From contig CABHOK010000011.1 of assembly GCA_902168205.1 (NCBI GenBank), forward strand, positions 372,001 to 436,000: 64,000 nt of DNA, written 5' to 3'. A model generated the notes under the pieces. That model had not been told where the DNA came from. It did no database searches and saw only the letters and a program-made list of their open reading frames with translations. This document shows, one piece after another, positions 26,307 through 58,818 of the stretch. The DNA comes from an uncultured Chitinophaga sp. Lineage in GTDB: Bacteria > Bacteroidota > Bacteroidia > Cytophagales > Cyclobacteriaceae. The translations under genes and the position numbers were made by a program. Numbering within the stretch: the stretch's first letter is position 1; the number at the start of each line of letters is the position of its first letter.

Positions 26307-26404
26307 TGTAATTCGTTCCCGTTTTTTATCAGAATATATATAGCAGGCTCTTTGTAAAAGGAGCCCGCAGGAGATACTTTTTTATAAATTTTAACCGATA
26401 CTAC

Positions 26405-27088
26405 ATGAAACGTAAAATTATTTTGTGCTTCCTGCTGATCATGAGCAGTGCGACTTCATACCTGTTTTCACAACATACCGAAACGATCCGGAAGCGCGGG
26501 TATATATTAACCGTTATCAACCACGACAAAACGTTTGACCCGAAAGTGCGCGAGCGTATGATCAAAACTTTTTTTGATGTATATCCGGTACTGATGAAAG
26601 CCTATAATGCGAAGGCTGCGAAAGAGATAACGTTCGAGATCGATACAGCTTATAACGGTGTAGCAGAAGCATCCGGTACACATGTGCGCTATAATCCGAA
26701 ATGGTTTCATACCAATCCCGGAGATATAGATGTCGTGACACATGAGATCATGCACATTGTACAGAATTATCCTGGAGATGCCGGACCGTGGTGGATTACC
26801 GAAGGCGTTGCTGACTATGTGCGCTATGTGTACGGTGTTGACAATGCCGGTGGTGGCTGGGCATTGCCACCTTATATAAATGGACAACACTATAGCAACG
26901 GGTATCGTGTAACGGCACGCTTCCTGGTGTGGATGGAGAAGCAGGTAAAGCCGGGTATAGTGAAGACACTCGACCGTGCGATGCGCACGGCAACGTATAC
27001 CGATGCGATCTGGCAACAAGAGACTGGTAAAAATATTGACCAGCTGTGGACTTCTTATACGGAGAATCCGATAGTTGCTAGGAATTAA
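26405..27088 (+). CDS. Basic secretory protein family peptidase
   Basis: A 227-residue secreted protein (signal ending LFSQ). It contains the metalloprotease motif HEIMH (113-117) and the following QNYPGDAGPWWITEGVADYVRYVYG block, which are features of the plant-type basic secretory protein family (PF04450), predicted zinc peptidases. Downstream are the conserved-looking YSNGYRVTARFLVWMEK and LDRAMRTATYTDAIWQQETGKN segments. Its place between a fucosidase and two mannosidases supports a glycoprotein-degrading locus. Proteolytic activity of this family is presumed from the motif. Confidence 0.85.
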   Translation: MKRKIILCFLLIMSSATSYLFSQHTETIRKRGYILTVINHDKTFDPKVRERMIKTFFDVYPVLMKAYNAKAAKEITFEIDTAYNGVAEASGTHVRYNPKWFHTNPGDIDVVTHEIMHIVQNYPGDAGPWWITEGVADYVRYVYGVDNAGGGWALPPYINGQHYSNGYRVTARFLVWMEKQVKPGIVKTLDRAMRTATYTDAIWQQETGKNIDQLWTSYTENPIVARN

Positions 27089-27111
27089 TTTAGGGTTTGA
27101 TATTTTCGTGC

Positions 27112-29442
27112 ATGATTCTCAGAACTATCCTATGCTGCACGATCATCACGTGCATTTCAATTTCTGTGCGTGCACAGGAAATTGCCAAACCTTATGCTGA
27201 TCTTTCCGAGTATGTAAACCCGTTGATCGGCACTGCTTCTACACATGCAATGTCCAATGGTAACACATATCCTGCTATAGCATTGCCATGGGCTATGAAC
27301 TTCTGGATGCCACAAACCGGACCGATGGGCGATGGCTGGGCGTATACCTATACGGCCAACAAGATAAAGGGCTTCAAGCAAACGCATCAGCCTTCACCGT
27401 GGATGAATGACTATGGTCAGTTTTCCATTATGCCAGTAACCGGTAAATTGAGACTTAAGGAAGAAGAACGCGCCAGCTGGTTCTCGCATAAAGCTGAAGT
27501 TGCCAAACCCTATTATTATAGTGTATACCTCGCAGATCATAATGTTACGACTGAATTAACACCCACCGAGCGTGCTGCATTTTTCCGGTTTACATTTCCG
27601 AAATCAGATTCGTCCTATATCGTGGTGGATGCGTTTGACAAGGGCTCCTATATCAAAATTATACCGGATCAAAAGAAGATCATTGGTTATACTACACGCA
27701 ACAGTGGGGGTGTGCCGCAGAATTTCAAAAATTACTTTGTTATATACTTCGACAAACCCTTTGCATCCGCGAAGACCTGGAATAAATATCAGCTTCAGCA
27801 AGGTGTGGAATTTACCGGTGATCATGCCGGTGCTGTTATTGGTTTCAAGACTTCGGTTGGTGAACAGGTGCATGTGCGTGTAGCCTCATCGTTTATCAGC
27901 TTCGAACAGGCCGAGCTTAACCTGAAAGAGATCGGCAACGACAACTTTGAGACCGTAAAACAAAAAGGACAAGCTGCCTGGAATAAAGAGCTTAGCCGTA
28001 TCGTTGTAGAAGGCGGCACAGAAGATCAGTTGCGTACATTCTATTCGTGCCTGTATCGTTCATTACTTTTCCCGCGCAAGTTTTATGAGCTTGATGCTTC
28101 CGGTAAAGTAGTACACTATAGTCCGTATAACGGGCAAGTATTGCCAGGCTATATGTTTACCGATACTGGTTTCTGGGATACATTCCGTTCATTGTTCCCG
28201 TTCCTCAACCTGATGTACCCGGAGCTGAGTGCACACATGCAGGAAGGATTGGTAAACGCCTATAAAGAAGGAGGATGGTTGCCGGAGTGGGCAAGCCCGG
28301 GCTATCGCAATGTTATGATCGGATCGAACTCTGCATCGATCGTATCGGATGCCTATATAAAAGGAATGCGTGGTTATGATATCAATGCACTCTATGAAGC
28401 TGCATTGAAGAATGCAAACAACGAAGGACCGCTTACTGCTGTAGGTCGCGCAGGTGTAAAAGACTATAATACGCTAGGCTATGTTCCGTATGATGGTGGT
28501 GTGAATGAAAATGCAGCGCGTACGCTTGAGTATGCGTATGATGACTTCGCAATCTATCAATTAGCAAAAGCATTGAACAAGCCTAAAAAAGAAATTGACT
28601 TGTTTGCCAAGCGTTGCCAGAATTACCGTAATCTCTTTGATAAGCAAACCGGCTTGATGCGTGGCAAGAATAAGAATGGTACATTTCAATCGCCATTCAA
28701 TCCGTTCAAATGGGGCGATGCGTTTACAGAGGGTAACAGCTGGCATTATACCTGGTCAGTGTTTCATGATGTACAGGGATTGATTGACCTGATGGGAGGC
28801 AAAGAAAAGTTTGCTATGAAACTTGATTCCGTATTCACGCTGGCTCCTGTATTTGATGACAGCTACTATGGAGCCGTAATCCATGAGATACGTGAGATGC
28901 AGATTGCAGATATGGGGCAGTACGCACATGGCAATCAACCGATACAACACATGATATACCTGTATAATTATGCAGGTCAGCCGTGGAAAGCGCAACAGTG
29001 GGTACGCGAAACCATGAACAAACTATATTTACCGACACCGGATGGTTATTGTGGCGATGAGGATAACGGACAAACTTCTGCCTGGTATGTTTTCTCAGCG
29101 CTGGGATTTTACCCGGTGTGTCCTGCCACGGATCAATATATACTGGGGACACCATTCTTCAAGAAAGCTACATTACATTTAGAGAACGGCAAGCAGGTGG
29201 TAATCAATGCACCGGCCAACAGTAAAGAGAATTACTATATAGCTTCGTCATCAATCAACGGACAGACCTTTACACGAAGCTGGATAACCCACCAGGAATT
29301 AACCAATGGTGCTACCCTTGACTTCACGATGGCGGCACAGCCGAACAAACAGCGCGGTATAGCAGCAGAAGATGTTCCGTATTCGTTCTCGCTTGAGAAG
29401 AAGGCGGAGGAAGTGAAAGGTGGAAAGAAAAGTAAGAAGTAA
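27112..29442 (+). CDS. GH92 alpha-mannosidase, GDEDNG subgroup
   Basis: A 776-residue secreted glycosidase (signal ending SVRAQ). GH92 enzymes are calcium-dependent exo-alpha-mannosidases. The N-terminal block YVNPLIGTASTHAMSNGNTYPAI and the catalytic-side block TEGNSWHYTW are present. The base region reads GDEDNGQTSAWYVF and the upstream block is GNQP, where the neighbouring paralogue has GNDDCGQMSA and GNEP. This marks a distinct GH92 subgroup, so linkage specificity may differ. The frame opens at TTG 27097, but ATG 27112 gives a cleaner signal peptide. The gene starts soon after the BSP gene and 31 bases before the second GH92. Confidence 0.9.
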   Translation: MILRTILCCTIITCISISVRAQEIAKPYADLSEYVNPLIGTASTHAMSNGNTYPAIALPWAMNFWMPQTGPMGDGWAYTYTANKIKGFKQTHQPSPWMNDYGQFSIMPVTGKLRLKEEERASWFSHKAEVAKPYYYSVYLADHNVTTELTPTERAAFFRFTFPKSDSSYIVVDAFDKGSYIKIIPDQKKIIGYTTRNSGGVPQNFKNYFVIYFDKPFASAKTWNKYQLQQGVEFTGDHAGAVIGFKTSVGEQVHVRVASSFISFEQAELNLKEIGNDNFETVKQKGQAAWNKELSRIVVEGGTEDQLRTFYSCLYRSLLFPRKFYELDASGKVVHYSPYNGQVLPGYMFTDTGFWDTFRSLFPFLNLMYPELSAHMQEGLVNAYKEGGWLPEWASPGYRNVMIGSNSASIVSDAYIKGMRGYDINALYEAALKNANNEGPLTAVGRAGVKDYNTLGYVPYDGGVNENAARTLEYAYDDFAIYQLAKALNKPKKEIDLFAKRCQNYRNLFDKQTGLMRGKNKNGTFQSPFNPFKWGDAFTEGNSWHYTWSVFHDVQGLIDLMGGKEKFAMKLDSVFTLAPVFDDSYYGAVIHEIREMQIADMGQYAHGNQPIQHMIYLYNYAGQPWKAQQWVRETMNKLYLPTPDGYCGDEDNGQTSAWYVFSALGFYPVCPATDQYILGTPFFKKATLHLENGKQVVINAPANSKENYYIASSSINGQTFTRSWITHQELTNGATLDFTMAAQPNKQRGIAAEDVPYSFSLEKKAEEVKGGKKSKK

Positions 29443-29473
29443 GTCTATTTAAATGCCTCAAGTTAGTTTTGTG

Positions 29474-31768
29474 ATGATGATTCGAAAATTGGTTTTTGTG
29501 TTCTTTGTGTTTGTGGCGTGCAGCCGTACCGTTGCACAGGACAACCTGATCCAGCATGTGAATCCGTTAATCGGTACGCATAAGATGGGGCACACCTATC
29601 CCGGAGCTACTGTTCCGTTTGGAATGGTGCAATTGAGTCCGGAGACGGATACGATACCGTATGAAGTGGACGATCATTACAACCCGCTGGTATATAAATA
29701 TTGCGCGGGGTATCAGTATGATGATCCTACCATTGTCGGTTTTAGTCACACGCACTTTAGCGGTACCGGGCATTCTGATCTGGGCGATTTTCTGATCATG
29801 CCTGCTGCGGGTAAACTTCAGTTGAATCCAGGCACCGAACAAAATCCGAAAAGTGGTTTTCGTTCTGCTTTCTCACATAGCAACGAGCAGGCTGCTCCAA
29901 ATTACTATAAAGTAAAACTGGATGATGATAACATTGTAGCGGAGCTCACCACCACTAATCGTGTAGGCTTTCATCAATATACTTTTCCGCAGAGTGATGA
30001 AGCTCATATTATACTCGACCTGATGTATGGCATCTACAACCATGCTGATAAAAATGTATGGACGTTTGTTCGAGTTGAAAATGATACGCTGATAACGGGC
30101 TATCGCCAGACCAATGGCTGGGCTCGTACACGCACGGTATATTTTGCCATGACGTTTTCGAAACCGATAAAGCAATACGGTATGAAAGATTTTTCGAAGC
30201 CGGATGTATATAAAGGTTTCTGGCGGAAATTCGATCAGACAAAAAATTTTCCAGATATAGCAGGCGAGCAGATCAGGATGTACTTCGATTTTCAAACCAA
30301 AGAAGGAGAGAAGATCAAAATCAAATTTGCATTGTCACCAGTGAATATGAAAGGCGCGTTGGCGAATCTGCAATCTGAACTCCCGCATTGGGATTTTGAA
30401 AGAGCAAAACGCGAAGGACAACAACAATGGGAACGTGAACTGCAACGTGTAAAAGTAAAAGCACTGAACCGAAATGACTTGGTGAATTTTTACACCGCGA
30501 TGTACCACACGTTTCTTGGCCCGACAACCTATATGGATATTGACGGCTTGTATCGCGGACTCGATCAGAGCAATCACGAAGCGAAAGGATTTATAAACTA
30601 TACTACATTTTCATTGTGGGATACGTATCGCGCGCTGCATCCGCTGTTCAATGTTATACAGCCAAAGCGTAACAGCGATATGGTAAGTTCCATGATGGTG
30701 CATTATGATCAGAGCGTTCATAAAATGTTGCCGGTGTGGTCGCATCATGCCAACGAGAACTGGTGTATGATCGGCTACCACAGTGTTTCTGTAATTGCCG
30801 ATGCCGTGATCAAAGGAAATTACCAGGGCGATGCTCACCAGGCGTTGGAAGCATGTGTTGCTACGGCCCGCCACAAATCATACGATGGTATAGAATACTA
30901 TATGCAGCTTGGCTATGTTCCGGAAGACAAAAACAGTTCGTCAGTTTCAAAAACATTGGAGTATGCTTATGACGACTGGTGTATTGCACAAATGGCGAAG
31001 AAGCTCGATCGTCCTGCTATATATGAAGAGTTTATGAAGCGCTCACAGAACTGGAAAAATGTATACGATGTATCAACAGGCTACATGCGTCCGAAGTTGA
31101 GCGATGGTAAATTCAGGAAGGAGTTTGATGTATTGAGCACACATGGACAGGGATTCATTGAAGGCAACGCGTGGAATTATAGCTTGTATGTGCCACATGA
31201 TCCGGAGCAGATGATTGCTGCGATGGGGGGGAAGAAACGTTTTGTACAACATCTCGATTCTCTCTTTACCATGAATCTGCCGGATGAATTCTTCGCGCAC
31301 ACGGAAGACATAACACGTGAGGGCATCATTGGTAATTATGTACATGGCAATGAACCTGCACATCATGCGGCGTATCTCTATAATTGGACCGATCAGCCAT
31401 GGAAAACGCAAGAGCGTGTGCGTATGATTCTCAAGAAACAATATCAACCAACACCCGATGGTTTGGGTGGTAATGATGACTGCGGCCAGATGAGTGCCTG
31501 GTATATATTTACTTCACTGGGCTTTTACCCGGTAGCGCCCGGCTCTGATCAATACGCACTGGGAAGTCCTGCAGTACAATCAGCTACCATTGCCTTGGAG
31601 AATGGAAAGACATTCGAGATTGAAGCGGTTAATCAAAGCGACAAGAATGTATATGTACAGAAGGTGCTGCTGAACGATAAACCCCTTACGCGGCTTTACC
31701 TGACGCACGATGACATCGTGAAAGGCGGCAAGCTTACATTCTATATGAGTGCAAAGCCGAAGAAGTAA
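29474..31768 (+). CDS. GH92 alpha-mannosidase, GNEP/GNDD subgroup
   Basis: A 764-residue secreted GH92 glycosidase (signal ending TVAQ). It shows HVNPLIGTHKMGHTYPGATVPFGMVQLSP, IEGNAWNYSLYVPHD (probable acid Glu), GNEPAHHAAYLYN and GNDDCGQMSAWYIF (probable base Asp), all as in classic GH92 alpha-mannosidases. A second GH92 of a different subgroup lies directly upstream. ATG codons at 29453, 29474 and 29477 are all possible; 29474 places the charged residues at the start of the signal peptide. The enzyme likely removes terminal alpha-mannose from N-glycan-type chains. Confidence 0.9.
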   Translation: MMIRKLVFVFFVFVACSRTVAQDNLIQHVNPLIGTHKMGHTYPGATVPFGMVQLSPETDTIPYEVDDHYNPLVYKYCAGYQYDDPTIVGFSHTHFSGTGHSDLGDFLIMPAAGKLQLNPGTEQNPKSGFRSAFSHSNEQAAPNYYKVKLDDDNIVAELTTTNRVGFHQYTFPQSDEAHIILDLMYGIYNHADKNVWTFVRVENDTLITGYRQTNGWARTRTVYFAMTFSKPIKQYGMKDFSKPDVYKGFWRKFDQTKNFPDIAGEQIRMYFDFQTKEGEKIKIKFALSPVNMKGALANLQSELPHWDFERAKREGQQQWERELQRVKVKALNRNDLVNFYTAMYHTFLGPTTYMDIDGLYRGLDQSNHEAKGFINYTTFSLWDTYRALHPLFNVIQPKRNSDMVSSMMVHYDQSVHKMLPVWSHHANENWCMIGYHSVSVIADAVIKGNYQGDAHQALEACVATARHKSYDGIEYYMQLGYVPEDKNSSSVSKTLEYAYDDWCIAQMAKKLDRPAIYEEFMKRSQNWKNVYDVSTGYMRPKLSDGKFRKEFDVLSTHGQGFIEGNAWNYSLYVPHDPEQMIAAMGGKKRFVQHLDSLFTMNLPDEFFAHTEDITREGIIGNYVHGNEPAHHAAYLYNWTDQPWKTQERVRMILKKQYQPTPDGLGGNDDCGQMSAWYIFTSLGFYPVAPGSDQYALGSPAVQSATIALENGKTFEIEAVNQSDKNVYVQKVLLNDKPLTRLYLTHDDIVKGGKLTFYMSAKPKK

Positions 31769-37278: not shown

Positions 37279-37379
37279 TTGCCTTTTTCCAGAGACGGGT
37301 AGCCTGAAGCCGGTAGCTATTATTACATTTGCACGAGCCTGCCTTTTTCTAGCAGCTAGTAGCTGGAAGCCAGCAGCTC
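37279..37379. repeat. Tandem intergenic repeat, two imperfect copies
   Basis: Copy 1 (37279-37321) and copy 2 (37340-37379) share GCCTTTTTC, AG, TAGC, GAAGCC and AGCT words in the same order. A third, weaker set (AGCTTCTAGCTGCCAG) lies at about 37209. No gene is present. Confidence 0.5.
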
Positions 37380-37391
37380 TTTTCAATCTTT

Positions 37392-39338
37392 ATGAACGTA
37401 AACACGTGCACACGTAAACACCTAAACACGTTTCTTCTCCTCGCGTGGTTGTTGCTACTGTATGGCGGCAGTGTTCGTGCGCAGGAAATTTTCGAGGTGG
37501 ACGATAGTTATATCGAACGCAACTTCATGCCGTATGAGTTGGAGTACTACCTGGATACAACCAATACGCTTTCATTTTTTCAGATTTCTTCGAACAATTT
37601 TTCGAACCGGTTTCAACAGCATCCGGATTATCATAATCAGGACTTTAAACCGAACGCTTCGTATTGGATACGCTTACCCATTCACCATAAAAAAAGTAGT
37701 AAGGTTTGGTTGCTTGAATTTTACGATCAGACTATAGATTACATCGAAGCGTATGTGCCGCAGGAGAATGGTTCGTACCGAAATGTACTCATGGGCGATA
37801 ATCAGCCCTTTACACAGCGTAACATACGACATAAGAATTTTGAGATTGTATTGGATATAAAGTCTGATACGGTCATGTACTATTACTTTAATGTTCGCTC
37901 GCATGAGTTTGCTGATATACGTATTGCCTTCCGCTCGGTAGACCGGTTTATATACTATGCGCTCAACGAGTATTTTCTCTTCGGTACATTCTACGGAATG
38001 ATCCTCATCATTAGTCTGTATAATCTACTGGTATTCCTCGCGATCCGTGAGATCAAGAATATATACTATATTATTTATATTCTAAGTGTAGCTGCGTATG
38101 CGATGAGCTATGATGGCATCGGGTTTCAATATCTCTGGCCCCGGCATCCCGAGTGGAATAATTATGCCGTTGGTGTAACGTTGTTTTCAGTTATCGTGTG
38201 GGGATTGATCTTTACCAGACGTTTCCTGCGCACCCATGCCAATGCACCACGACTGGATATAGCGTTGAAGTGGATGATCGTGATTCGTTCTGTGTGGTTC
38301 CTGGTGGAGTTGTTTTTCCTGCCGCAGTTACTAACCTATCGCAACATTGAGATCATTCCGCTTTCGCTGATTTTTTATACCGGTATAAAAGTATGGAAGC
38401 GGGGTTACAGACCTGCGCGATTCTTTGTAATTGCCTATGGTATATTGTTTACCGGATTCTTTATCCGTACCCTGGTATATTTCAATGTGCTGCCGTTCAC
38501 AACGCCTTTGCATTATAGTCTGCACTTCAGCTTTGTATTGGAGATGTTGTTCCTGACGTTTGCATTGGGCGACAGGATCAGGATTCTGAAAGACATGCGC
38601 GATCGTGCCTTGAAGAGAATCATTCACCAGCATGAAGTAAACATGCAGTTGAAAGACAAGGTAAACCGCGAGCTCGAACAAAAAGTACACGAGCGTACGC
38701 TGGAGTTGAATGAAAAGAATCAGGAGTTGGAAGAGACGAACGCCAAGCTCGAGCGGCAGTCTTTCGAGATCAATCAGATTAACTCCATGCTCGATCTTGA
38801 TAACTGGAAGCTGAAGAACAGTATCAAGGAAGTATTGAACGAACGTCTCATGGAAAAGACGATGGACTATAGCCAGTTTAAGACACTATATCCGGATACC
38901 CTGGCCTGTTACCGCTTCCTGGAAAATCTGAAATGGACCAAAGGCTTCCATTGCCGTAAGTGCGATAACGAAAAGTATTTTGATGGGGCCCAGAAGTTTT
39001 CCAGGCGATGCACCCGTTGTGGGTACAATGAGTCTATCACTGCCTATACTATATTTCACAGTCTCAAGTTTCCGATCGAAAAGGCTTTTTACATCGCCTA
39101 CCTTACCGTTGTCGGTCATAAAGATTACACGCTGGAGAACCTGGCCGAGCAACTCGACCTGCGGGTAAATACGCTCTGGGGTTTCCGGCACAAAGTTGCC
39201 GATCGCATCAGCGAACTCGAAAAGAAAGGTCACAAGCCAAACGCTTCACGATGGGAGGAGGTAATTCTGTTGCCGGAGTCCAACGGCAAGGCATCCGGCA
39301 AATCTAGTTCCGGCAAAGTGGCAAAGCCGGTGGCCTGA
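37392..39338 (+). CDS. 7TM-DISM receptor fused to IS1595-type zinc ribbon/HTH DNA-binding module
   Basis: A 648-residue membrane protein. Domains in order: signal peptide (1-31, ending SVRAQ), periplasmic 7TMR-DISMED2-like beta domain (about 35-180), seven-transmembrane DISM core (about 195-400), a coiled coil (about 405-500, LEQKVHERTLELNEKNQELEE), a zinc ribbon with C521-x2-C524 and C540-x2-C543, and a helical segment (about 545-615, TIFHSLKFPIEKAFYIAYLT then a LAEQLDLRVNTLW helix-turn-helix). The last two parts match the N-terminal region of IS1595/ISXO2 transposases, but no transposase catalytic domain follows. This suggests a membrane-bound one-component regulator whose sensor faces the periplasm. 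It lies directly upstream of a glucan utilization locus. DNA binding and target are inference. Confidence 0.8.
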   Translation: MNVNTCTRKHLNTFLLLAWLLLLYGGSVRAQEIFEVDDSYIERNFMPYELEYYLDTTNTLSFFQISSNNFSNRFQQHPDYHNQDFKPNASYWIRLPIHHKKSSKVWLLEFYDQTIDYIEAYVPQENGSYRNVLMGDNQPFTQRNIRHKNFEIVLDIKSDTVMYYYFNVRSHEFADIRIAFRSVDRFIYYALNEYFLFGTFYGMILIISLYNLLVFLAIREIKNIYYIIYILSVAAYAMSYDGIGFQYLWPRHPEWNNYAVGVTLFSVIVWGLIFTRRFLRTHANAPRLDIALKWMIVIRSVWFLVELFFLPQLLTYRNIEIIPLSLIFYTGIKVWKRGYRPARFFVIAYGILFTGFFIRTLVYFNVLPFTTPLHYSLHFSFVLEMLFLTFALGDRIRILKDMRDRALKRIIHQHEVNMQLKDKVNRELEQKVHERTLELNEKNQELEETNAKLERQSFEINQINSMLDLDNWKLKNSIKEVLNERLMEKTMDYSQFKTLYPDTLACYRFLENLKWTKGFHCRKCDNEKYFDGAQKFSRRCTRCGYNESITAYTIFHSLKFPIEKAFYIAYLTVVGHKDYTLENLAEQLDLRVNTLWGFRHKVADRISELEKKGHKPNASRWEEVILLPESNGKASGKSSSGKVAKPVA

Positions 39339-39504: not shown

Positions 39505-39574
39505 ATGAATTCGGTAGTCAACTTCTCACCCATAAAATGGGAGTATCCATTCCGTTGTTTTTATTCTGGAAAAG

Positions 39575-39610
39575 ACGATTCATTATTCTACAAATAATGC
39601 ATGGAATCGT
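39575..39610. promoter_or_regulatory. Two-part inverted repeat upstream of susC
   Basis: ACGATTC (39575-39581) pairs with GAATCGT (39604-39610), and ATTATT pairs with AATAAT inside. It is a possible regulator site or leader hairpin. Confidence 0.4.
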
Positions 39611-39758
39611 TTGAAATCAATGTTTTTTATCTGGAAAAAACAACACGCGAAAACATTCCTGTAACGATTGCAATTGGTCTCATTTTTTAGAAAATCTTCT
39701 GGCAAGAGCTTGACATGTATAAAATTCGGCTCTGCGAAACCAACTAAAACGCAAGTCT

Positions 39759-42700
39759 ATGATCAGAAAATTACTATTTACGGTGCTGTTGCACAGTTTG
39801 TTGCTAACAACAGTCTGGGCCCAAGACAGACAAGTAAGCGGAAAGGTGACAGCCGCTGAAGATGGCACATCGTTACCGGGAGTAAATATTGTTGTTCAGG
39901 GAACAACAAAGGGTACGACTACAGATGCTGAAGGTAATTACACCATTCAGCTTGGTCCCTCAGAGAATACATTGGTTTTTACGTTTGTAGGTTTTACAAC
40001 CATCACGGAAACGGTTGGCGACAGAACGGTGATCGATGTAGTGATGGGCTCTGATATAACTTCACTTGGTGAGGTCGTTGTGATTGGTTATGGTGTTGCG
40101 AAGAAATCGGATGTTACCGGTGCTGTGGCTACAGTAAAGGCGGAAGATCTCAACAAGATCCCTTCGTCAACAGCGGCAGAAGCATTGCAAGGTAAAGTTG
40201 CCGGTGTACAGGTAACGACCAACGGTACCCCTGGAAGCGCACCGACTATACGCGTACGCGGATTGGGTTCGGTAAGCTCCCGCGTTGAACCGCTCTATGT
40301 AGTGGACGGAGTATTGGTAGATGACATCAGCTTCCTGGGAAGCAACGACATCGAGTCCATGAACATTCTTAAAGATGCATCGGCATCCGCTATATATGGT
40401 ATACGTGCATCCAACGGTGTAGTAATTATTCAGACCAAGCGCGGCAAGAACGAGCAACCGCGCATAGCATATTCCGGCTATGGAGGTGTACAAACGCCAA
40501 TCAACATGGTTGATATGGCCAACGGTTCACAGTATATAGAATTGTTGAATGAGAAGGATGCTATAGCAGCAAGCCGCAACGGAACAACGTTCACACCACG
40601 TGATGCTTCCGCATATCCTTACTCAACAGATTGGTATGACGAAATTTTAAGAAGCGGTGCTTCGATTCAAAGCCACGACCTGAGCGTAACTGGTGGAACT
40701 GAGAAGAGCGTATATGCCATGGGTGGTAGCTTCTTTAAACAAGAAGGTTTAGCGGGCGGTACAGATTACAGACGTCTTAACCTCAGGACAAATGTAGAAT
40801 CGAACGTTACTAAATTTTTGAAAATTGGTGTAAACGCAAACCTTTCAAATTTCAAATCGAATAATGCTCCCGCATCTTTGTTTACCGGAGCTTATATAGC
40901 ACCTCCGGCCATACCCGTTCGTATAGATGAAAATACATTCGCCAGTCCACAGGCGTTTGGTGATTTTGCAAACCCTGCTGCGTCACAATACTATAACAAT
41001 GATAAAACGAAAGGTATACGTTTAGTAGGCGCTGTGTTTGCAGACGTTACCCTGATGAAAGGCCTGACTTTCAAAACGGCTTATGGCGTTGATGGAAGCT
41101 ATAGTCAGAATACAAAATACGTTCCTCCGTACTTTGTCTCTTCAACACAACGTGATACAACCAAAACGTTGACACGCAAAATAGATAACTACTTCAGTTA
41201 CTATTGGGACAATACACTTACCTACGATTTCACGGTGAATTCAGATCACCACTTTACATTGCTCGCAGGTATGAACGCACAGCAGCAACAGTACTACTAT
41301 ATGGAAGGTAAACGCCAGGGTGTTGATAACTTTGGAGAGAATACATGGTACTTCAAATTAAGTGAGAGCGGTAACGATGGATCTATAACCGATGATGGCT
41401 ATAGAATCAGAGCTTTCTCATACTTTGGTAGATTAAGCTATGCTTTCAGAGAGAAGTATCTCTTAACGGCAACCTTGCGCAGAGATGGTACTTCTGTATT
41501 TGAAGAAGGAAACCGTTACGATTACTTTCCGTCAGTAGGTTTGGGTTGGGTAATTTCCAACGAATCATTCATGGACAACCAGGAAATATTCCAGTTCCTA
41601 AAAGTACGTGCAAGCTGGGGTAAGATGGGTAACAACCGTATACCTGCATCTACAGTTGTAAATTATACTTCAACGGGTGGAGCGTATAGTCCTGTATTCG
41701 GTGGAACAATTCAACCAGGTGAAAGTATTACTATCATAGCACCTGATAATTTACTTTGGGAGTATACCAAAGAAGTTGATTTGGCTGTTGAAGGTTACGT
41801 GTTAAAGAACCGCCTCAACTTTGAGATCGACTACTACAATCGTAAAACATCCAATGCTATTTTCCCGGTTACGGTTAACGGTGTGTTCGGAACATCGAAC
41901 AGAGATTACCTCGATAATAATGCAGATGTTGTTAACCGCGGTGTAGAAGTTGCCCTGAACTGGAAAGATGAAGTGGGTGATTTCAAATATGGTATCGGTG
42001 GCGTTTTTGCTTACAACCAAAACAAGGTTGACGCACTGAAGCCCGGAACTGTAGGTATATATGGCGGTTATGTAAACGTAACACCAACAACCTATACTGT
42101 TGTAGGACACAGCGTAGGTGAATTCTATGGACGCAAAGTGATTGGCATTTTCCAGAATACATCTGAAATTGAAAGCTATACTTCTTCTAACGGAACTGTA
42201 ATTCAGCCCAATGCAAAACCTGGTGATTTTAAATACCAGGATAGTAATGATGATGGACAGATCAGCGATAAAGATCGTGTTTTCCTGGGATCAGCTATTC
42301 CAAAGTATAACTTTGGTATAAATCTGTATGGTGCCTATAAAGGCTTCGACATCACGATAGACCTGTACGCACAAGGCGGAAATAAAATTTACAACGCGAA
42401 ACGCTATCGCCAGATTGGTAACGAAAACTATGACCTCGATTTCTATGAGAATCGTTGGCATGGAGAAGGTACTTCCAACAGCTATCCGTCAGCAGATCTT
42501 TCTGCAGATGCTAACAAGCAAGCTAACTCATGGTACCTGGAATCTGGTAACTTCTTCAAAGTCCGCAACATTCAAATCGGCTATACAATACCGGCAGAAA
42601 CAACTTCGCGCATCGGTATATCCAAGATTAGAATATATGCGAACGCAGCGAACCCATTGGTATCATTCAAATACAATGGTTTCTCTCCTGAGATACCAAC

Positions 42701-42815
42701 CGCAGTTCCTGGTGTAAATCAACAGAATACTACAAACATCACCAGTCAGGGTATAGATAACAATGTATATCCGATGGCTGCTACGTACAACTTTGGTGTT
42801 AATATCAGTTTATAG
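39759..42815 (+). CDS. SusC/RagA-type TonB-dependent receptor (glucan locus)
   Basis: A 1018-residue outer-membrane receptor without STN domain. Signal ending VWAQ, then the regulatory domain (about 24-105, SGKVTAAEDGTSLPGVNIVVQGTTKGTTTDAEG), the plug (about 110-230, VVVIGYGVAKKSDVTGAVATV and LKDASASAIYGIRASNGVV) and a barrel ending in NFGVNISL. Lack of STN fits regulation by something other than an ECF sigma factor. SusD follows 14 bases downstream, then a PF10091 enzyme and a GH3, so the cargo is probably a beta-linked gluco-oligosaccharide. Confidence 0.95.
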   Translation: MIRKLLFTVLLHSLLLTTVWAQDRQVSGKVTAAEDGTSLPGVNIVVQGTTKGTTTDAEGNYTIQLGPSENTLVFTFVGFTTITETVGDRTVIDVVMGSDITSLGEVVVIGYGVAKKSDVTGAVATVKAEDLNKIPSSTAAEALQGKVAGVQVTTNGTPGSAPTIRVRGLGSVSSRVEPLYVVDGVLVDDISFLGSNDIESMNILKDASASAIYGIRASNGVVIIQTKRGKNEQPRIAYSGYGGVQTPINMVDMANGSQYIELLNEKDAIAASRNGTTFTPRDASAYPYSTDWYDEILRSGASIQSHDLSVTGGTEKSVYAMGGSFFKQEGLAGGTDYRRLNLRTNVESNVTKFLKIGVNANLSNFKSNNAPASLFTGAYIAPPAIPVRIDENTFASPQAFGDFANPAASQYYNNDKTKGIRLVGAVFADVTLMKGLTFKTAYGVDGSYSQNTKYVPPYFVSSTQRDTTKTLTRKIDNYFSYYWDNTLTYDFTVNSDHHFTLLAGMNAQQQQYYYMEGKRQGVDNFGENTWYFKLSESGNDGSITDDGYRIRAFSYFGRLSYAFREKYLLTATLRRDGTSVFEEGNRYDYFPSVGLGWVISNESFMDNQEIFQFLKVRASWGKMGNNRIPASTVVNYTSTGGAYSPVFGGTIQPGESITIIAPDNLLWEYTKEVDLAVEGYVLKNRLNFEIDYYNRKTSNAIFPVTVNGVFGTSNRDYLDNNADVVNRGVEVALNWKDEVGDFKYGIGGVFAYNQNKVDALKPGTVGIYGGYVNVTPTTYTVVGHSVGEFYGRKVIGIFQNTSEIESYTSSNGTVIQPNAKPGDFKYQDSNDDGQISDKDRVFLGSAIPKYNFGINLYGAYKGFDITIDLYAQGGNKIYNAKRYRQIGNENYDLDFYENRWHGEGTSNSYPSADLSADANKQANSWYLESGNFFKVRNIQIGYTIPAETTSRIGISKIRIYANAANPLVSFKYNGFSPEIPTAVPGVNQQNTTNITSQGIDNNVYPMAATYNFGVNISL

Positions 42816-42829
42816 TAAAGAGTATAAAG

Positions 42830-44287
42830 ATGAAAAAGCATATAATTTTTTTAGTAGTAATACTAATACTGCTGACGCCATTTGGCTGCAGTGATTATCT
42901 GGATGTAGATGCAGAAGCTGTGAAGCCAAGCGATGAATTTTTCCAGACGGAAGAAGATGCAGTGTCTGCCGTGAACGCGATCTACGCACGTATGCGCACA
43001 TGGCCTATGGTGGCATTTGCGTATGTAATTATGCAGGAGATCACTTCTGATAATTCAATCAAGGGAAGTGCACAAGGTGATGCATCCTTCATCAACGACT
43101 TTGATAAGTTTACTTTCACATCGACACAAGGTACGATTACGGATTATTGGAACGGTCGTTATGAAGGTATAAATCTGAGCAACCAGGTGTTGAGTAACGT
43201 TCCGGACATCGAAATGAATGAGACACTCAAAGCACGCCTGTTGGCTGAGGCTAAATTTACCCGCGCTTTGTTTTACTTCGACTTGGTACGTGCGTTTGGA
43301 GATGTACCGATGCCAACGTCAGTTGATAACGTACTCGAAGCCTCTACCGTACGCACTCCGAAGGATGAAGTATACGCACAGATCATTCAGGATCTGACAG
43401 AAGCTATTGATGTACTGCCAGAGAGTTATGACGCTGCCAATCTGGGCCGTGCAACAAAAGGTGCTGCTCGCGGTATACTGGCAAAAGTATATCTGTACAG
43501 AGGCGAATGGGACAAAGTACTTGAACAAACATCAGCGATCATCAGCTCGAATCGTTATGGATTGGAAGACAACTTCTATAATGTATTCCGTATACCGTAT
43601 GAAAATGGTAAAGAATCATTGTTCGAAATTCAGGCTTCAGCGATAGCTGGTAATGCTGATATCAGCAACAGCCAGCACTCACAAGTACAAGGTGTACGCG
43701 GTACTAACGGATTTGGCTGGGGTTTCAATATACCTTCGGATGATCTGGCAGCAGCATTTGATGCAGCCGGAGATGATGTGCGTAAAAAAGTTACCATCCT
43801 GTTTAAAGGCGATGTTACACAAGACGGTGACCTGATTGAAGGCGTTAATGCAGGTGAACTCGAAGGAGTAAATATACCTCGCTACAATGGTAAGTCTTAT
43901 GTACCTCGTAACAGACAAATAAATGGTGTGAACGAAGGTTCCGAGCAAAACATCCGCGTGTTGCGTTATGCTGAAATATTGTTGATCGATGCGGAAGCGA
44001 AAGCACAAAAGGGAGATGTATCAGGTGCTGCTACATCCTTAAACCTGGTGAGAGAACGCGTAGAGCTTGATCCTATTGATGCGCCTACGGTACAGGATAT
44101 ATGGAACGAACGCAGACTTGAACTTGCTATGGAAGGCGACCGCTTTTATGATCTGGTGCGTACCGGTCAGGCAGCAACTGTGCTGGGGCCGCAGGGATTT
44201 GTAACAGGCAAGAATGAAGTGTTCCCGGTTCCGCAAGTAATGATTGACGTTACGAACGGAGCCATCCAACAGAATAACGGATATTAA
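42830..44287 (+). CDS. SusD/RagB family lipoprotein (glucan locus)
   Basis: A 485-residue surface lipoprotein (lipobox TPFGCSDYLD, Cys20). Typical SusD order: N-terminal FFQTEEDAVSAVNAIYARMR, the AEAKFTRALFYFDLVRAFGDVPMP helix pair, and the C-terminal block IWNERRLELAMEGDRFYDLVRTGQA and NEVFPVPQVMIDV. Partner of the SusC 14 bases upstream. It captures the glycan at the surface. A 12-bp hairpin lies between its stop and the next gene. Confidence 0.95.
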   Translation: MKKHIIFLVVILILLTPFGCSDYLDVDAEAVKPSDEFFQTEEDAVSAVNAIYARMRTWPMVAFAYVIMQEITSDNSIKGSAQGDASFINDFDKFTFTSTQGTITDYWNGRYEGINLSNQVLSNVPDIEMNETLKARLLAEAKFTRALFYFDLVRAFGDVPMPTSVDNVLEASTVRTPKDEVYAQIIQDLTEAIDVLPESYDAANLGRATKGAARGILAKVYLYRGEWDKVLEQTSAIISSNRYGLEDNFYNVFRIPYENGKESLFEIQASAIAGNADISNSQHSQVQGVRGTNGFGWGFNIPSDDLAAAFDAAGDDVRKKVTILFKGDVTQDGDLIEGVNAGELEGVNIPRYNGKSYVPRNRQINGVNEGSEQNIRVLRYAEILLIDAEAKAQKGDVSGAATSLNLVRERVELDPIDAPTVQDIWNERRLELAMEGDRFYDLVRTGQAATVLGPQGFVTGKNEVFPVPQVMIDVTNGAIQQNNGY

Positions 44288-44317: not shown

Positions 44318-44346
44318 AGAGGTTTCCGGCTTGTCCGGAAGCCTCT
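44318..44346 (+). terminator. Hairpin after SusD
   Basis: AGAGGTTTCCGG pairs over 12 bases with CCGGAAGCCTCT around a 5-base loop, followed by TTGG. A likely partial terminator or mRNA-stabilising stem. Confidence 0.6.
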
Positions 44347-44366
44347 TTGGTTATCGTGAATTGAAA

Positions 44367-46013
44367 ATGATAAAAAATGCAATTGGTCTGTTGTTAGTAG
44401 GTCTGCTCGTAATAGCATGTAGCGGTAGTGATGACAAGGATATAGATTTTCCGGATCCGCTTACCATCGAGTCGTGGACAATTGCAACGAAGGACGTTAC
44501 ACTTGCCAGTACAATTGCAGATATACCCTGCGATGATGTTGTAACCGAAATCACTTTCTCAGAAGCACTGAATCCATCCACGGTAAATACACAGAACTTT
44601 AAGATTACCGATGCAGCGGGAAATGCCATACCTGCCACAATTACGTTGCAGGAAAATAGAAAGGTTCTCATCACAGCGAGTAGTAAACTCAGCGATCTTT
44701 CCAAATATATGCTTACGGTTTCTACAGGTATTGCCGGAGTAAATGGGAGTACACTGAGTGAGCGAAGCCTTACATTTTATACCGCTATCGATGAGAGCCC
44801 TGATTTTCCTGTACTCTCCGATGATGAGCTTCTTACCCTCGTGCAGAAACAAACGTTTCGTTACTTCTGGGATTTAGCGGAGCCTTCCAGCGGCATGGCA
44901 CGTGAGCGTAGTACTTCCGGTAATGTTGTTACCAGTGGAGGCTCGGGCTTCGGCATCATGGCCATCATTGTAGGAGTTGAACGCGGCTTTATCACACGTA
45001 GCGAAGGTATACAACGCATGAACAAGATTGTAACCTTCCTGGAAAATGCAGATCGTTTTCATGGTGCATGGTCACACTGGATTAATGGAAGCAACGGTAC
45101 GGCTATACCTTTCAGTACGAAAGATGATGGTGGCGATCTGGTTGAAACATCATTCCTCGTACAGGGATTGCTTACGTTCCGTCAATATTTGCAGGCATCC
45201 GATACATCGGGGAACAACCTGATCAATCGTATCAACACATTATGGAAAGATGTAGAGTGGGATTGGTATCGGAAGAACAACGAAGAAGTTTTATACTGGC
45301 ACTGGTCGTCCAATTATAATTGGGACATGAATTTCCCGATGTATGGTTACTTTGAAGAACAGATTACATATTTTCTCGCGGCTGCATCTCCAACGCATAG
45401 TATACCGAAGAGTGTATATACCAACGGTTACGGTCGCAATGGTGCAATAAAGACAGGTGGAACACATTATGGATATACATTGCCATTGGGAACGCCAAGT
45501 CCGCTATTCTGGGTACATTATTCATATGTCGGCATGAATCCGAATTTCTCGGACGAGTTTGCAAACTACTGGCAACAGAATGTTAATGCTACGTTGATCA
45601 ATCATGCTTACTGTGTATCGAATCCTAAAAAATATATAGGCTATAGCGATGCTTGCTGGGGATTGACATCGAGCGATAATTCAACCGGGTACGATGCCCA
45701 TTCGCCTGCTAATGATAAAGGCGTAATTACACCCACCGCAGCTCTTTCTTCTTTTCCTTATACACCGGAAGAATCGATGAAGGCGTTGAAATTCTTTTAC
45801 TATACGGTTGGTGACAGGCTGTGGGGGGACTATGGATTTTACGATGCGTTTAATCTTACCGAGGGCTGGACGGCAGATTCATACCTGGCGATTGATCAGG
45901 GACCGATCATCATTATGATTGAAAATTACAGAAGCGGATTGCTGTGGGATTTGTTTGAGTCAGCTCCCGAAGTACAGGCTGCACGTACAAAGCTTGGATT
46001 TACAAATAATTGA
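44367..46013 (+). CDS. PF10091 glycoamylase-like hydrolase, probable GH144 endo-beta-1,2-glucanase
   Basis: A 548-residue lipoprotein (lipobox VIACSGSDD). An Ig-like/Big_5 domain (about 25-135) precedes the catalytic region: QTFRYFWDLAEPSSGMARERS, GFGIMAIIVGVERGFI, WSHWINGSNGTAIPF, DDGGDLVETSFLVQGLL, and a GAIKTGGTHYGYTLPLG stretch. This is the PF10091 family once called glucoamylase. Members beside SusCD and GH3 include the GH144 endo-beta-1,2-glucanases of Chitinophaga and Bacteroides. A GH144 role is therefore favoured but not proved. The frame opens at TTG 44331; ATG 44367 starts the signal peptide. Confidence 0.82.
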   Translation: MIKNAIGLLLVGLLVIACSGSDDKDIDFPDPLTIESWTIATKDVTLASTIADIPCDDVVTEITFSEALNPSTVNTQNFKITDAAGNAIPATITLQENRKVLITASSKLSDLSKYMLTVSTGIAGVNGSTLSERSLTFYTAIDESPDFPVLSDDELLTLVQKQTFRYFWDLAEPSSGMARERSTSGNVVTSGGSGFGIMAIIVGVERGFITRSEGIQRMNKIVTFLENADRFHGAWSHWINGSNGTAIPFSTKDDGGDLVETSFLVQGLLTFRQYLQASDTSGNNLINRINTLWKDVEWDWYRKNNEEVLYWHWSSNYNWDMNFPMYGYFEEQITYFLAAASPTHSIPKSVYTNGYGRNGAIKTGGTHYGYTLPLGTPSPLFWVHYSYVGMNPNFSDEFANYWQQNVNATLINHAYCVSNPKKYIGYSDACWGLTSSDNSTGYDAHSPANDKGVITPTAALSSFPYTPEESMKALKFFYYTVGDRLWGDYGFYDAFNLTEGWTADSYLAIDQGPIIIMIENYRSGLLWDLFESAPEVQAARTKLGFTNN

Positions 46014-46072: not shown

Positions 46073-46121
46073 GAGGAGCCCCACCTTTAGCATAGTCTCT
46101 CCTTGAGAGACTTGCTGAGGT
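46073..46121. repeat. REP-like long hairpin between GH144-like and GH3 genes
   Basis: CACCTTTAGCA pairs (one bulge) with TGCTGAGGTG, and inside it GTCTCTC pairs with GAGAGAC around CTT. Just upstream is the short palindrome CTCCTGAGGAG. The design resembles small palindromic repeats common in Bacteroidota intergenic DNA. Confidence 0.6.
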
Positions 46122-46161
46122 GTTACGAATGAATTTTGAAATGAAGGAATATTATAATGTT

Positions 46162-48393
46162 ATGAAACGAATATATATACTGATTCTGGCTGCTACACTG
46201 ATTTTTACCGGCTGCAAGAAGGGAGGTAATACATCGTCATCCGGCTCTGACCGATATGATGCCCGTGTTGATTCTCTTTTAAGCATCATGACGCTGGAAG
46301 AAAAAATAGGACAGCTTACCTTGTTTACCAGTGACTATGATGTAACAGGCCCTACGATACGCGAGGGGTACAAAGACGATATCAAGGCCGGAAAAGTAGG
46401 AGCAATTTTTAATGCTTTCGGTGCAGACTATACACGCAAGCTGCAGGAGATCGCTGTGAAAGAAACCAGGTTACATATACCGTTGCTTTTCGGGTATGAT
46501 GTAGTGCATGGACATCGTACAATATTTCCGATACCATTAGGGGAATCTTCGAGTTGGGATCTGGGTATTATGGAGCAGTCTGCGCGCATTGCTGCGGAAG
46601 AAGCATCAGCTGAAGGATTGCATTGGACTTTTGCCCCGATGTGTGATATAGCCCGTGATCCTCGCTGGGGACGCATGGCTGAAGGTGCCGGTGAAGATAC
46701 ATACCTCGGCTCACGTATAGCAGAAGCGCGTGTGAAAGGTTTTCAGGGAAAAGGTATAGGCGAGTTGAACTCTGTACTAGCCTGCGTAAAACACTTTGCT
46801 GCTTATGGCGCTGCACAAGCAGGAAGAGATTATCACACGACCGATATGTCTGATCGTGTGTTGCGCGAAGTATATCTTCCTCCGTATAAAGCTGCCGTTG
46901 ACGCAGGTGCTGCTACGGTAATGACTTCATTCAACGAACTGGATGGTATACCGGCAACCGGTAACAAATACCTGATGACAGACATTCTTCGAAAAGAATG
47001 GAACTTCGCAGGTTTTGTAGTTACAGACTATACTTCCATTATGGAATTGATACCACATGGTATAGCAGAAGACACTGCGTCAGCAGCTGCGCTTGCATTG
47101 GAAGCAGGTGTTGATATGGATATGCAGGCTGGTTTTTACAACGATGCACTCGAAAAACTTGTGAAGGATGGCAAGTTGAAAGAGAGCCTCATTGATGATG
47201 CCGTGAGAAGAATTCTGAAAAAGAAATTTGAGTTGGGATTGTTCGAAGATCCATACCGCTATAGCAACGCAGAGCGTGAGAAGGCTACGGTGATGAAGAA
47301 AGAATTTCTGGATGCAGCACGCGATGGAGCACGTAAGTCAATTGTGTTGTTGAAGAACGAGCAGAATGTATTGCCGCTATCCAAAAATACGAAGCGGATT
47401 GCTGTGATAGGGCCGCTGGCGAATGCCCGCAAAGAGATGATCGGATCATGGTCTGCTGCCGGTGATTGGACAAAGGCAGTAACGCTACTGGAAGGTATCA
47501 AGGCGGCTGTTAGCCCTGCAACGCAGGTACTATATGCCAAGGGCTGCAACATCAATGATGACACCACGCAATATATAGCACAGGCCGTGCAGGTTGCCAA
47601 ACAAGCTGATGTAGTGGTGCTCTCTATTGGGGAAGCTGCGTTGATGACTGGCGAGGCTGCGAGCCGTACATCTCTGAATTTACCGGGTGTGCAGCAACAA
47701 CTGGTGGAGGCTATACAGAAAACAGGTAAACCTGTAGTAGTGGTATTGTCCAACGGAAGACCGTTGACAATTAATTGGATCGATAAAAATATACCCGCTA
47801 TCGTAGAGACTTGGTTCCTGGGTACACAAGCGGGTTATGCCATGGCCGATGTATTGTTTGGTGACTATAATCCTTCCGCCAAACTTACGGTAACATTCCC
47901 GCGTGCCATTGGACAAGTGCCAATATACTATAGTATGAAGAATACCGGTCGTCCGATGGATGCAAATAATAAGTATACATCCAAGTATCTGGACGAATCG
48001 AACGAAGCCCTGTATCCATTTGGTTACGGACTTAGCTATACTACATTTTCCTATGGCGATGTTATCTTGAGCAACAAACAAATTTCTCAACAAGACGAAT
48101 TAACCGTTACCTGCAAAGTGACCAATACTGGTAAACTGGCAGGTGAGGAGGTAGTGCAACTCTATATCCGGGATATGGTAGGAAGCGTAACGAGACCTGT
48201 GAAAGAACTGAAGAATTTCCAGAAGATTTTGCTACAGCCGGGCGAATCAAAAGATATATCATTCACGCTCACACAACACGATTTGTCATTCTTCCGAAAA
48301 GATATGTCGTTTGGCGTAGAGCCCGGTAAATTTGAAGTATATGTAGGCTGTAACTCGCGCGATGTGAAGACTGCGGGTTTCGTATTACAATAG
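46162..48393 (+). CDS. GH3 beta-glucosidase, lipoprotein
   Basis: A 743-residue glycosidase (lipobox LIFTGC). GH3 N-terminal barrel: VDSLLSIMTLEEKIGQLTLF, FGYDVVHGHRTIFPIPLG, HWTFAPMCDIARDPRWGRMAEGAGEDTYLG, CVKHFAAYGAAQAGRDYHTTDMS, and the nucleophile aspartate in GFVVTDYTS. The C-terminal GH3_C and fibronectin-like domains follow (LPLSKNTKRIAVIGPLA, YPFGYGLSYTTFSYGDV). It likely hydrolyses oligosaccharides made by the PF10091 enzyme to glucose. Upstream starts (GTG 46120, ATG 46141) are possible; 46162 begins the signal peptide. Confidence 0.92.
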   Translation: MKRIYILILAATLIFTGCKKGGNTSSSGSDRYDARVDSLLSIMTLEEKIGQLTLFTSDYDVTGPTIREGYKDDIKAGKVGAIFNAFGADYTRKLQEIAVKETRLHIPLLFGYDVVHGHRTIFPIPLGESSSWDLGIMEQSARIAAEEASAEGLHWTFAPMCDIARDPRWGRMAEGAGEDTYLGSRIAEARVKGFQGKGIGELNSVLACVKHFAAYGAAQAGRDYHTTDMSDRVLREVYLPPYKAAVDAGAATVMTSFNELDGIPATGNKYLMTDILRKEWNFAGFVVTDYTSIMELIPHGIAEDTASAAALALEAGVDMDMQAGFYNDALEKLVKDGKLKESLIDDAVRRILKKKFELGLFEDPYRYSNAEREKATVMKKEFLDAARDGARKSIVLLKNEQNVLPLSKNTKRIAVIGPLANARKEMIGSWSAAGDWTKAVTLLEGIKAAVSPATQVLYAKGCNINDDTTQYIAQAVQVAKQADVVVLSIGEAALMTGEAASRTSLNLPGVQQQLVEAIQKTGKPVVVVLSNGRPLTINWIDKNIPAIVETWFLGTQAGYAMADVLFGDYNPSAKLTVTFPRAIGQVPIYYSMKNTGRPMDANNKYTSKYLDESNEALYPFGYGLSYTTFSYGDVILSNKQISQQDELTVTCKVTNTGKLAGEEVVQLYIRDMVGSVTRPVKELKNFQKILLQPGESKDISFTLTQHDLSFFRKDMSFGVEPGKFEVYVGCNSRDVKTAGFVLQ

Positions 48394-51164: not shown

Positions 51165-51190
51165 AAGCGTAATATTTTAGTCGTTTCATT

Positions 51191-51226
51191 TTATCAGCTG
51201 GGAGTATATATACTTACTGCTGATAA
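51191..51226. repeat. Inverted repeat between uxaC and uxaB
   Basis: TTATCAGC (51191-51198) and GCTGATAA (51219-51226) flank a perfect palindrome AGTATATATACT (51203-51214). It could form a stem in the operon transcript. Confidence 0.5.
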
Positions 51227-51238
51227 ACTATAGTTCAA

Positions 51239-52642: not shown

Positions 52643-52719
52643 ACGATGTGTATATACTTTATAGGCAAGACGTTTTTCACACACCTTTCCCCTGAAAAGG
52701 CACGGTATTCAGACAGCGA

Positions 52720-53751: not shown

Positions 53752-53783
53752 GTCGGCTCCGTGTTTACGTGCTGCCTCACATA

Positions 53784-55402: not shown

Positions 55403-55407
55403 AATGT

Positions 55408-55419
55408 GTAATCGGTTGC
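55408..55419. promoter_or_regulatory. LacI-type operator B, at the kduI start
   Basis: GTAATCGGTTGC matches the perfect palindrome of operator A at 10 of 12 positions and ends 5 bases upstream of the kduI start codon. Next to it is the palindrome TTGCGCAA. Confidence 0.55.
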
Positions 55420-55423
55420 GCAA

Positions 55424-55698
55424 TATAAAAGAAAATTAATTTAATGTGCTATTTCCGGTAGTGAAGTATTTTTCAGGAATTTAGCAGGAATCGATGTCTA
55501 GCCATCTTTTATAATGCTACCTATTCATTAATTCAATCAAAAATCGGCTTTTTAAAAATATTTGAAATATCATTTGGTAGGTTAAATTTTCCTTCCTAAA
55601 ATGCAATCGATTGCGCATCGGAGTCGATTGCAGTCGCCTGAAAATTACCGTTTTGCATTCTCTATAGACTATATAAAACCCATTTCAACAAACCCAAT
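55424..55698. promoter_or_regulatory. Divergent promoter region kduI/susC with LacI-type operators A and C
   Basis: Operator A is a perfect palindrome GCAATCGATTGC (55603-55614). Operator C, GGAGTCGATTGC (55620-55631), shares 10 of 12 bases, and their centres are 17 bp apart. They lie about 70-95 bp before the susC start and about 200 bp from the kduI start. Elsewhere the gap is AT-rich and no gene is seen. Confidence 0.65.
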
Positions 55699-58797: not shown

Positions 58798-58818
58798 GAC
58801 CCAAAAATCAGATCACTT

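Follow-up and report, generated by a model that had tools for sequence, protein, structure and literature searches.

A 7TMR-DISM receptor with an IS1595-type zinc ribbon and helix-turn-helix: a probable membrane-anchored regulator of beta-glucan loci in Bacteroidota

Introduction

In the HTCS, SusR and ECF/FecR systems, a membrane-linked sensor controls a neighbouring susCD glycan locus. HTCS proteins contain a kinase, a receiver and an AraC-type helix-turn-helix (HTH), and ECF/FecR trans-envelope control involves an STN domain on SusC. A different input, made of a DISMED2 domain and a seven-transmembrane (7TM) core, is found in RetS and LadS of Pseudomonas, and RetS signals through histidine kinase parts. 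In a 64,000-nucleotide stretch of DNA from an uncultured Chitinophaga sp. (hereafter the window), a gene for a receptor with this DISMED2 and 7TM input stands directly upstream of a glucan operon, and its product ends in a zinc ribbon and HTH of the type found in IS1595 transposases. What does such a protein do beside a susCD operon? We put at roughly three chances in four the reading that it controls transcription of beta-glucan loci as a membrane-anchored one-component regulator, with a domesticated IS1595 head and paired operator sites.

Results

The receptor carries a DISM input and an IS1595-type head

The receptor gene and the segments of its product are as follows.

37392..39338, + strand: 7TMR-DISM receptor with IS1595-type zinc ribbon and HTH, candidate regulator (open reading frame, Pfam, NCBIfam, relatives)
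37539..37925, + strand: DISMED2 periplasmic sensor domain, residues 50-178 (PF07696, E 1.6e-25)
37968..38576, + strand: seven-transmembrane core, residues 193-395 (PF07695, E 4.1e-47; transmembrane-length helices in the model)
38589..38849, + strand: long helix/coiled coil continuing TM7, residues ~400-486 (AlphaFold2, conservation)
38904..39026, + strand: IS1595-type zinc ribbon, residues 505-545, C521/C524/C540/C543 (PF12760, invariant cysteines)
39066..39215, + strand: helix-turn-helix segment, residues 559-608 (NF033547 positions 3-53; predicted helices)

The reading frame opens with ATG and encodes 648 amino acids. A first-pass annotation of this DNA had described a DISMED2 domain, a 7TM core and a zinc ribbon in one protein, and this description is confirmed, with each domain scoring above its own Pfam cut-off. 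The N-terminal part matches both 7TMR-DISMED2 and 7TMR-DISM_7TM with the E-values listed above, and Zn_ribbon_IS1595 (PF12760) is matched at E 1.2e-6 and 28.8 bits (cut-off 25.4) when the whole protein is searched, and at 31.7 bits when the C-terminus is the sole query. The zinc ribbon that characterizes the N-terminus of IS1595 transposases is thus present here, placed C-terminally in the receptor, and it is the single PF12760 match in the window's genome. Residues 559-608 align with positions 3-53 of the 215 positions of NF033547, the NCBIfam model of IS1595 transposases (E 9.7e-6); the score of 25.6 bits lies far under the whole-protein cut-off of 75 because the receptor carries just part of the model. 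The catalytic domain DDE_Tnp_IS1595 (PF12762), which the annotation had called missing, is indeed absent among the receptor's Pfam matches at E <= 1, as are a kinase, a receiver and an AraC-type HTH. The annotation had also named the four cysteines C521, C524, C540 and C543, and each of them is unchanged in 81 of 81 aligned rows. Because 80 of the 81 rows were retrieved with a pattern that includes the second pair, this conservation is free of the search criterion for the first pair only. Its placing of the transposase likeness in the last 100 residues holds for the likeness to IS1595 and needs correction as to extent, since the conserved module spans residues ~485-626 and is followed by a short variable tail.

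An AlphaFold2 model of the full receptor (81 rows; mean pLDDT 85) contains, in order, an N-terminal helix, a beta domain, seven transmembrane-length helices, and the ribbon with a helical head. Residues 376-486 form a single predicted helix, with pLDDT <50 at 473-486, and L467, N471 and L474 within it are invariant across the 81-row alignment. The HTH helices are placed at 562-574, 581-588 and 592-611, and the isolated head, modelled separately, reaches a pLDDT of 84.5. What follows the 7TM core would be a signalling module, composed of the zinc ribbon and HTH past the long helix and presumably lying on the cytoplasmic side. The best Foldseek match of the full model is the RetS periplasmic domain (3jyb, E 6.2e-5); for the head alone, Foldseek returned nothing among solved structures at E <= 0.001, the best value being 0.46. 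The full model also resembles Wntless (8tzs, E 6.2e-5) and, weakly, TMEM87A (8htt, E 0.015), both of which are 7TM proteins with a luminal beta domain.

The adjacent operon probably degrades a beta-1,2-glucan

The following genes lie downstream of the receptor.

39759..42815, + strand: SusC-like TonB-dependent transporter (TIGR04056, E 6.5e-249)
42830..44287, + strand: SusD-like lipoprotein (PF14322, PF07980)
44331..46013, + strand: GH144-like endo-beta-1,2-glucanase (PF10091; structure matches)
46120..48393, + strand: GH3 beta-glucosidase, BglX-like (NF011678, E 5.9e-273; PF00933)

The GH144 protein has a putative glucoamylase (4gl3, E 6.6e-155) as its top structural match and matches the endo-beta-1,2-glucanase chain 5gzh at E 2.9e-149, while the GH3 protein matches the periplasmic beta-glucosidase 5xxl (E 3.9e-236) and Lin1840 (4zoa, E 5.9e-174). 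Because GH144 matches 5gzh and GH3 resembles BglX and Lin1840, a beta-1,2-glucan is the probable glycan of this locus. No STN domain was found on the window's SusC, for which Pfam at E <= 1e-5 gives only CarbopepD_reg_2, CarboxypepD_reg and Plug, and no other regulator was found among the open reading frames searched at 32-48 kb of the window; the nearest one found otherwise is a LacI protein at 52720-53751. Both results agree with the proposal that the receptor stands in for the usual control of such loci.

Further features of the window may be recorded here. Upstream of the receptor gene, 37280-37381 holds two 42-nt direct repeats (74%) that are 60 bp apart. An alpha-L-fucosidase, a BSP peptidase and two GH92 genes stand in a row at 24882-31768, perhaps as a mannan or N-glycan locus. 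The region 49743-60501 contains a uronate-type cluster (KduI, a short-chain dehydrogenase, a LacI regulator, the glucuronate isomerase UxaC and a mannitol dehydrogenase-type protein) and, after it and on the opposite strand, a second susCD pair (55699-60501, + strand).

The fusion is conserved and its heads form one clade

Orthologues of the receptor are present in 7 of 7 genomes of the genus, at 75-95% identity in the other six, and three of the seven carry further copies at 37-45% identity. A scan of a collection of species genomes found 221 relatives; since the best 80 of these 221 were analysed, the counts for relatives lean to close kin. Among these best 80, the four-cysteine ribbon is present in all 80, its second half being part of the search pattern, and the fusion of receptor and ribbon is kept down to 39% identity. 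A model of the C-terminus matches 45 of 395 genomes of the phylum, 11 of which have a receptor-length open frame (620-718 aa); the remaining matches lie in shorter frames, mostly of ~290-345 aa, as in transposases. The annotated relatives that were inspected carry nothing beyond a 7TM label. A relative from Flammeovirga (L006, 7746-9635) precedes genes for a ribokinase, a GRP sugar transporter and an ADP-ribosylglycohydrolase, which hints at another ligand.

The origin of the head was addressed with a midpoint-rooted tree of the module (105 rows, 127 columns), which is weakly resolved in places and carries long-branch warnings. All 90 receptor modules fall into one clade (98/80). The next branch is a 137-aa solo protein, L122 (97/83), followed by the transposases L120 (94/83) and L123 (86/26, weak); the PF12762 catalytic domain is present in L120, L123 and L128. 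IS1595/ISXO2 transposases, which share the zinc ribbon and adjacent HTH, are thus the nearest outside relatives bar one solo protein. Unlike them, the receptor lacks a DDE catalytic domain and has its head joined to a membrane receptor. The simplest reading of the tree would be a single capture of an IS1595 head by the receptor family, apparently a clear example of a transposase domesticated as part of a receptor. The solo protein, encoded at 1197-1607 on the - strand of L122 and found also in L170, consists of the zinc ribbon and HTH alone, without a receptor. To see whether the operator described below might descend from a transposon end, the six L120-type genes of genome G168 were compared; they are 69-83% identical and have only ~1 kb in common, and no element end could be defined.

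Within the receptors, a GH30-side and a GH144-side clade are each supported at 100/99 and occupy different loci, within the window's own genus too. Paralogues of the genus (L167-L169) are placed in the GH30-side clade (100/99). An exception is L069/L166, which belongs to the GH144-side clade yet adjoins a GH30-model gene.

Most relatives stand beside susCD and glucanase genes

Linkage was scored in the loci of the best 80 of 221 relatives, with models self-built from genes of the window and of these loci. A susC-like gene follows the receptor on the same strand within 1 kb in 59 of these 80 loci, after a gap of 135-536 bp (median 273 bp); L031 is counted as head-to-tail, its downstream gene encoding an 803-aa TonB-dependent receptor of uncertain kind. 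SusD is present in 64 of these best 80 loci versus 1 of 29 control stretches, all from the window's genus, with 0 of 12 among non-zinc DISM loci (one of them 14 kb long instead of 20) and 1 of 17 among other stretches, which were hand-picked at round coordinates and are not random. SusC-model matches also occur in the controls (4 of the 12 non-zinc DISM loci and 3 of the 17 other stretches), and GH3 in 2 of those 17.

GH144 was found in 38 and GH30 in 33 of the best 80 of 221 loci, and the two together in none. Of the 72 loci that extend 6 kb or more downstream, 68 contain at least one match to the GH144, GH30, GH3, GH5 or GH16 models. GH16 counts are used in this figure only, because the self-built GH16 model drifted onto GH30 proteins; GH16 proper rests on Pfam for one gene. 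The GH30 protein of L075 is closest to structure 5ngk, which we take to be a beta-1,6-glucanase.

Twelve of the 21 loci without a susC directly downstream belong to Mucilaginibacter and have GH5 and/or GH30 in the locus. In L067, L077 and L082, susC is farther away or divergent (divergent in L082); the contig of L036 is too short; and L059 and L061 show no glycan genes by the self-built models. The survey for susCD neighbours that the first-pass annotation had suggested therefore does find a link, in that 59 of the best 80 of 221 receptors stand directly upstream of a susC-like gene, and the link proves common rather than universal, given the Mucilaginibacter loci.

Two direct copies of an operator-like site precede the operon

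Two candidate operator sites lie between the receptor and susC in the window.

39550..39575, + strand: operator-like site 1, distal, 7.7 bits (joint weight matrix)
39615..39640, + strand: operator-like site 2, proximal, 22.0 bits, 65 bp from site 1 (joint weight matrix)

Word counts over the receptor-susC gaps gave strong shared words, CGTTTGAAATCAATGTTTTT-like in GH144-type loci and GGTAY-NN-AAGCGTATCA in GH30-type gaps. The joint matrix has a centre of roughly TGTTaTTnAAGCGtAwaA, and in most gaps this element is present as two direct copies. In the window, site 2 overlaps the CGTTTGAAATCAATGTTTTT core at 39608-39627, and another tool re-found the pair as direct repeat D3 (39556-39576 / 39621-39641, 86%).

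The two best sites are 64-66 bp apart in 31 of 43 GH144-type loci (a group that includes four loci without a GH144 match, L037, L049, L055 and L056) and 90-93 bp apart in 19 of 22 GH30-type loci, the spacing being fitted in neither group. The corresponding means are 0.77 and 0.39 in shuffles, and 0.84 and 0.55 in nulls that retain the best site, with 4 as the highest null value. The matrices were also tested on halves of the data kept out of training: for GH30, 109 of 110 test rows exceeded the 99% shuffle threshold, and for GH144, 10-16 of 22 did so in each half. The joint matrix places 60 of 65 gaps above threshold, on the same data as it was fitted to; low scores were obtained for L045, L055, L066 and L074. 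Two of 18 control susC upstreams exceed the threshold as well, at 12.7 and 11.4 bits. Recognition across groups is poor: when the matrix comes from the other locus type, just 1 of 43 in one group and none of 22 in the other exceed the 99% threshold. The joint matrix and the spacing counts do not include L030 and L031 (L030 is in the first GH144 matrix, of 44 rows), and L160, L161 and L165 were removed as duplicates of L030-L032; in L031, a motif copy lies 4.3 kb further on.

In L067, where an extra gene separates receptor and susC, the pair precedes this gene and stands at the head of the gene row. No pair was found in L077, and no site in the divergent locus L082. Among 22 further loci without head-to-tail order (13 of them Mucilaginibacter-type), pairs occur only in L106 and L108, at 63 bp, and single sites of at least 14 bits stand before GH30-model genes in L103, L106 and L108.

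The site is rare in genomes and often lies between receptor and susC

The 20-base core occurs once with <3 mismatches in the window's genome (7.3 Mb), at 39608-39627. Across 245 genomes of the family, matches with <=2 mismatches were found at 47 places in 44 genomes, compared with 15 for the reversed control. Thirty of these loci were fetched, a set without G443 (1 mismatch) and two contig-start copies in G006. In eight of the thirty the match is flanked by receptor and susC, and these eight include the two fetched loci that have 0 or 1 mismatch; the other 22 have no receptor and susC flanks. Exact core copies in G001 and G002 also lie between receptor and susC, judged by coordinates, and G006 has one exact copy 4.3 kb beyond the receptor and two at contig starts.

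In 16 whole genomes, the corrected Sphingobacteria pattern gave 18 matches in 10 genomes versus 1 for the reversed control, and no match in the other 6. Twelve of the 18 lie between receptor and susC, three precede Pfam-confirmed GH30 genes in three Mucilaginibacter genomes, with no susC between, and three lie elsewhere; five genomes have two copies 92-93 bp apart. The pattern GGTAYNNNAAGCGTATCA, with a spacing one base longer than the corrected one, matched in 0 of 14 genomes.

Discussion

The PF12760 match, the linkage to susC and the paired sites support the one-component regulator that the first-pass annotation had proposed, and the conserved site pairs ahead of the operon are indirect support for direct control at the DNA. 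Given the IS1595-type head and the adjacent operon with its paired sites, the receptor probably senses a beta-glucan outside the cell and switches on the genes for its digestion in one step. We infer contact with DNA, a dimeric head, the nature of the ligand, and activation rather than repression. With the domain anatomy, conservation, gene linkage, paired sites and tree position established by computation, the following mechanism may be proposed. The periplasmic DISMED2 domain would bind a product of degradation of the local glycan; in the window, beta-1,2-gluco-oligosaccharides freed by the GH144 enzyme are the likeliest such product. The 7TM core would relay the signal along the long helical extension of TM7. 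The zinc-ribbon/HTH head, probably dimeric and presumably derived from an IS1595 transposase that lost its catalytic domain, would bind the two direct-repeat sites upstream of susC and thereby activate susC-susD-GH144-GH3.

It is also conceivable that the receptor signals through partners while another regulator reads the sites, the zinc ribbon and HTH serving as a protein contact, for example to RNA polymerase. Zinc ribbons often mediate protein contacts, and the head has no significant structural match to a solved DNA-binding protein. The head, however, shares homology with the N-terminal region of IS1595 transposases; the type of site tracks the clade of the regulator, paralogues of the genus included (L167-L169 carry a GCGTATCA-type site, single and without a partner); and the open reading frames searched at 32-48 kb hold no other regulator, the nearest one found being the LacI protein at 52720-53751. 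We consider this explanation unlikely.

Alternatively, susC operons of this type might bring the paired element with them as part of their promoter or as an RNA feature, in which case it would have nothing to do with the neighbouring receptor. This would fit the position of the best sites, which in most loci precede the start of susC by ~60-300 bp, and also L162, in which the receptor lies 1.7 kb away and the site has kept its place near susC. It fits less well with the three GH30 genes in the 16 whole genomes that follow the Sphingobacteria pattern with no susC between, and the fixed two-copy spacing of 64-66 or 90-93 bp is better explained by paired protein sites than by one promoter. We regard a promoter or RNA feature as unlikely too. 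A chance or degraded receptor-transposon fusion without function, which the resemblance of the module to transposases and its place beside them in the tree might suggest, is refuted by conservation of the fusion in all of the best 80 of 221 relatives' loci, down to 39% identity, and in every genome of the genus, and its probability is negligible.

The preferred reading, a one-component regulator, can be compared with several known systems. With RetS and LadS the receptor shares the DISMED2 and 7TM input, and a LadS on a plasmid record, annotated as a hybrid sensor histidine kinase/response regulator, matches receptor residues 81-426 at 29.7%. Unlike these proteins, the receptor has no histidine kinase domain, and a head of presumed DNA-binding type takes its place. 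It likewise differs from HTCS, SusR and ECF/FecR control in its DNA-binding module, in the lack of kinase, receiver and AraC parts, and in the SusC without STN. The first-pass annotation had called this a candidate for an undescribed system. That would hold for the IS1595-type head, whereas a 7TMR-DISM with a DNA-binding domain is not wholly new: 7TMR-DISM is among the architectures listed for the ChiS-family DNA-binding domain in proteobacterial genomes (PMC8092284, Fig. 5 legend). As far as that legend and the main text go, ChiS-family proteins resemble the receptor as membrane sensors with their own DNA-binding domain and differ in which domain it is, the main text making no mention of zinc (PMC8092284). 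We found no description of a 7TMR-DISM combined with an IS1595 head in the open-licence literature searched. Judged from the sequences, a known input and a known DNA-binding ancestor appear to be joined in a new combination with its own operator pair.

A wider scenario is offered tentatively, and we would not expect all of it to hold: one capture of an IS1595 head may have given rise to dedicated beta-glucan regulators across Cytophagales, Sphingobacteria and Chitinophaga, which would make up a class of their own among glycan-sensing regulators. In these, two sites at a fixed distance would be read as the ancestral transposase read two transposon ends, a receptor dimer at the membrane connecting the sites by looping or bridging.

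The predicted operator pairs make the regulator idea testable. If it is true, a single protein would connect an outside glycan with a susCD promoter, in addition to the HTCS, SusR and ECF/FecR routes, and the receptor would become a candidate for the control of beta-1,2-glucan loci and GH30-type beta-glucan loci in Bacteroidota of soil and aquatic habitats.
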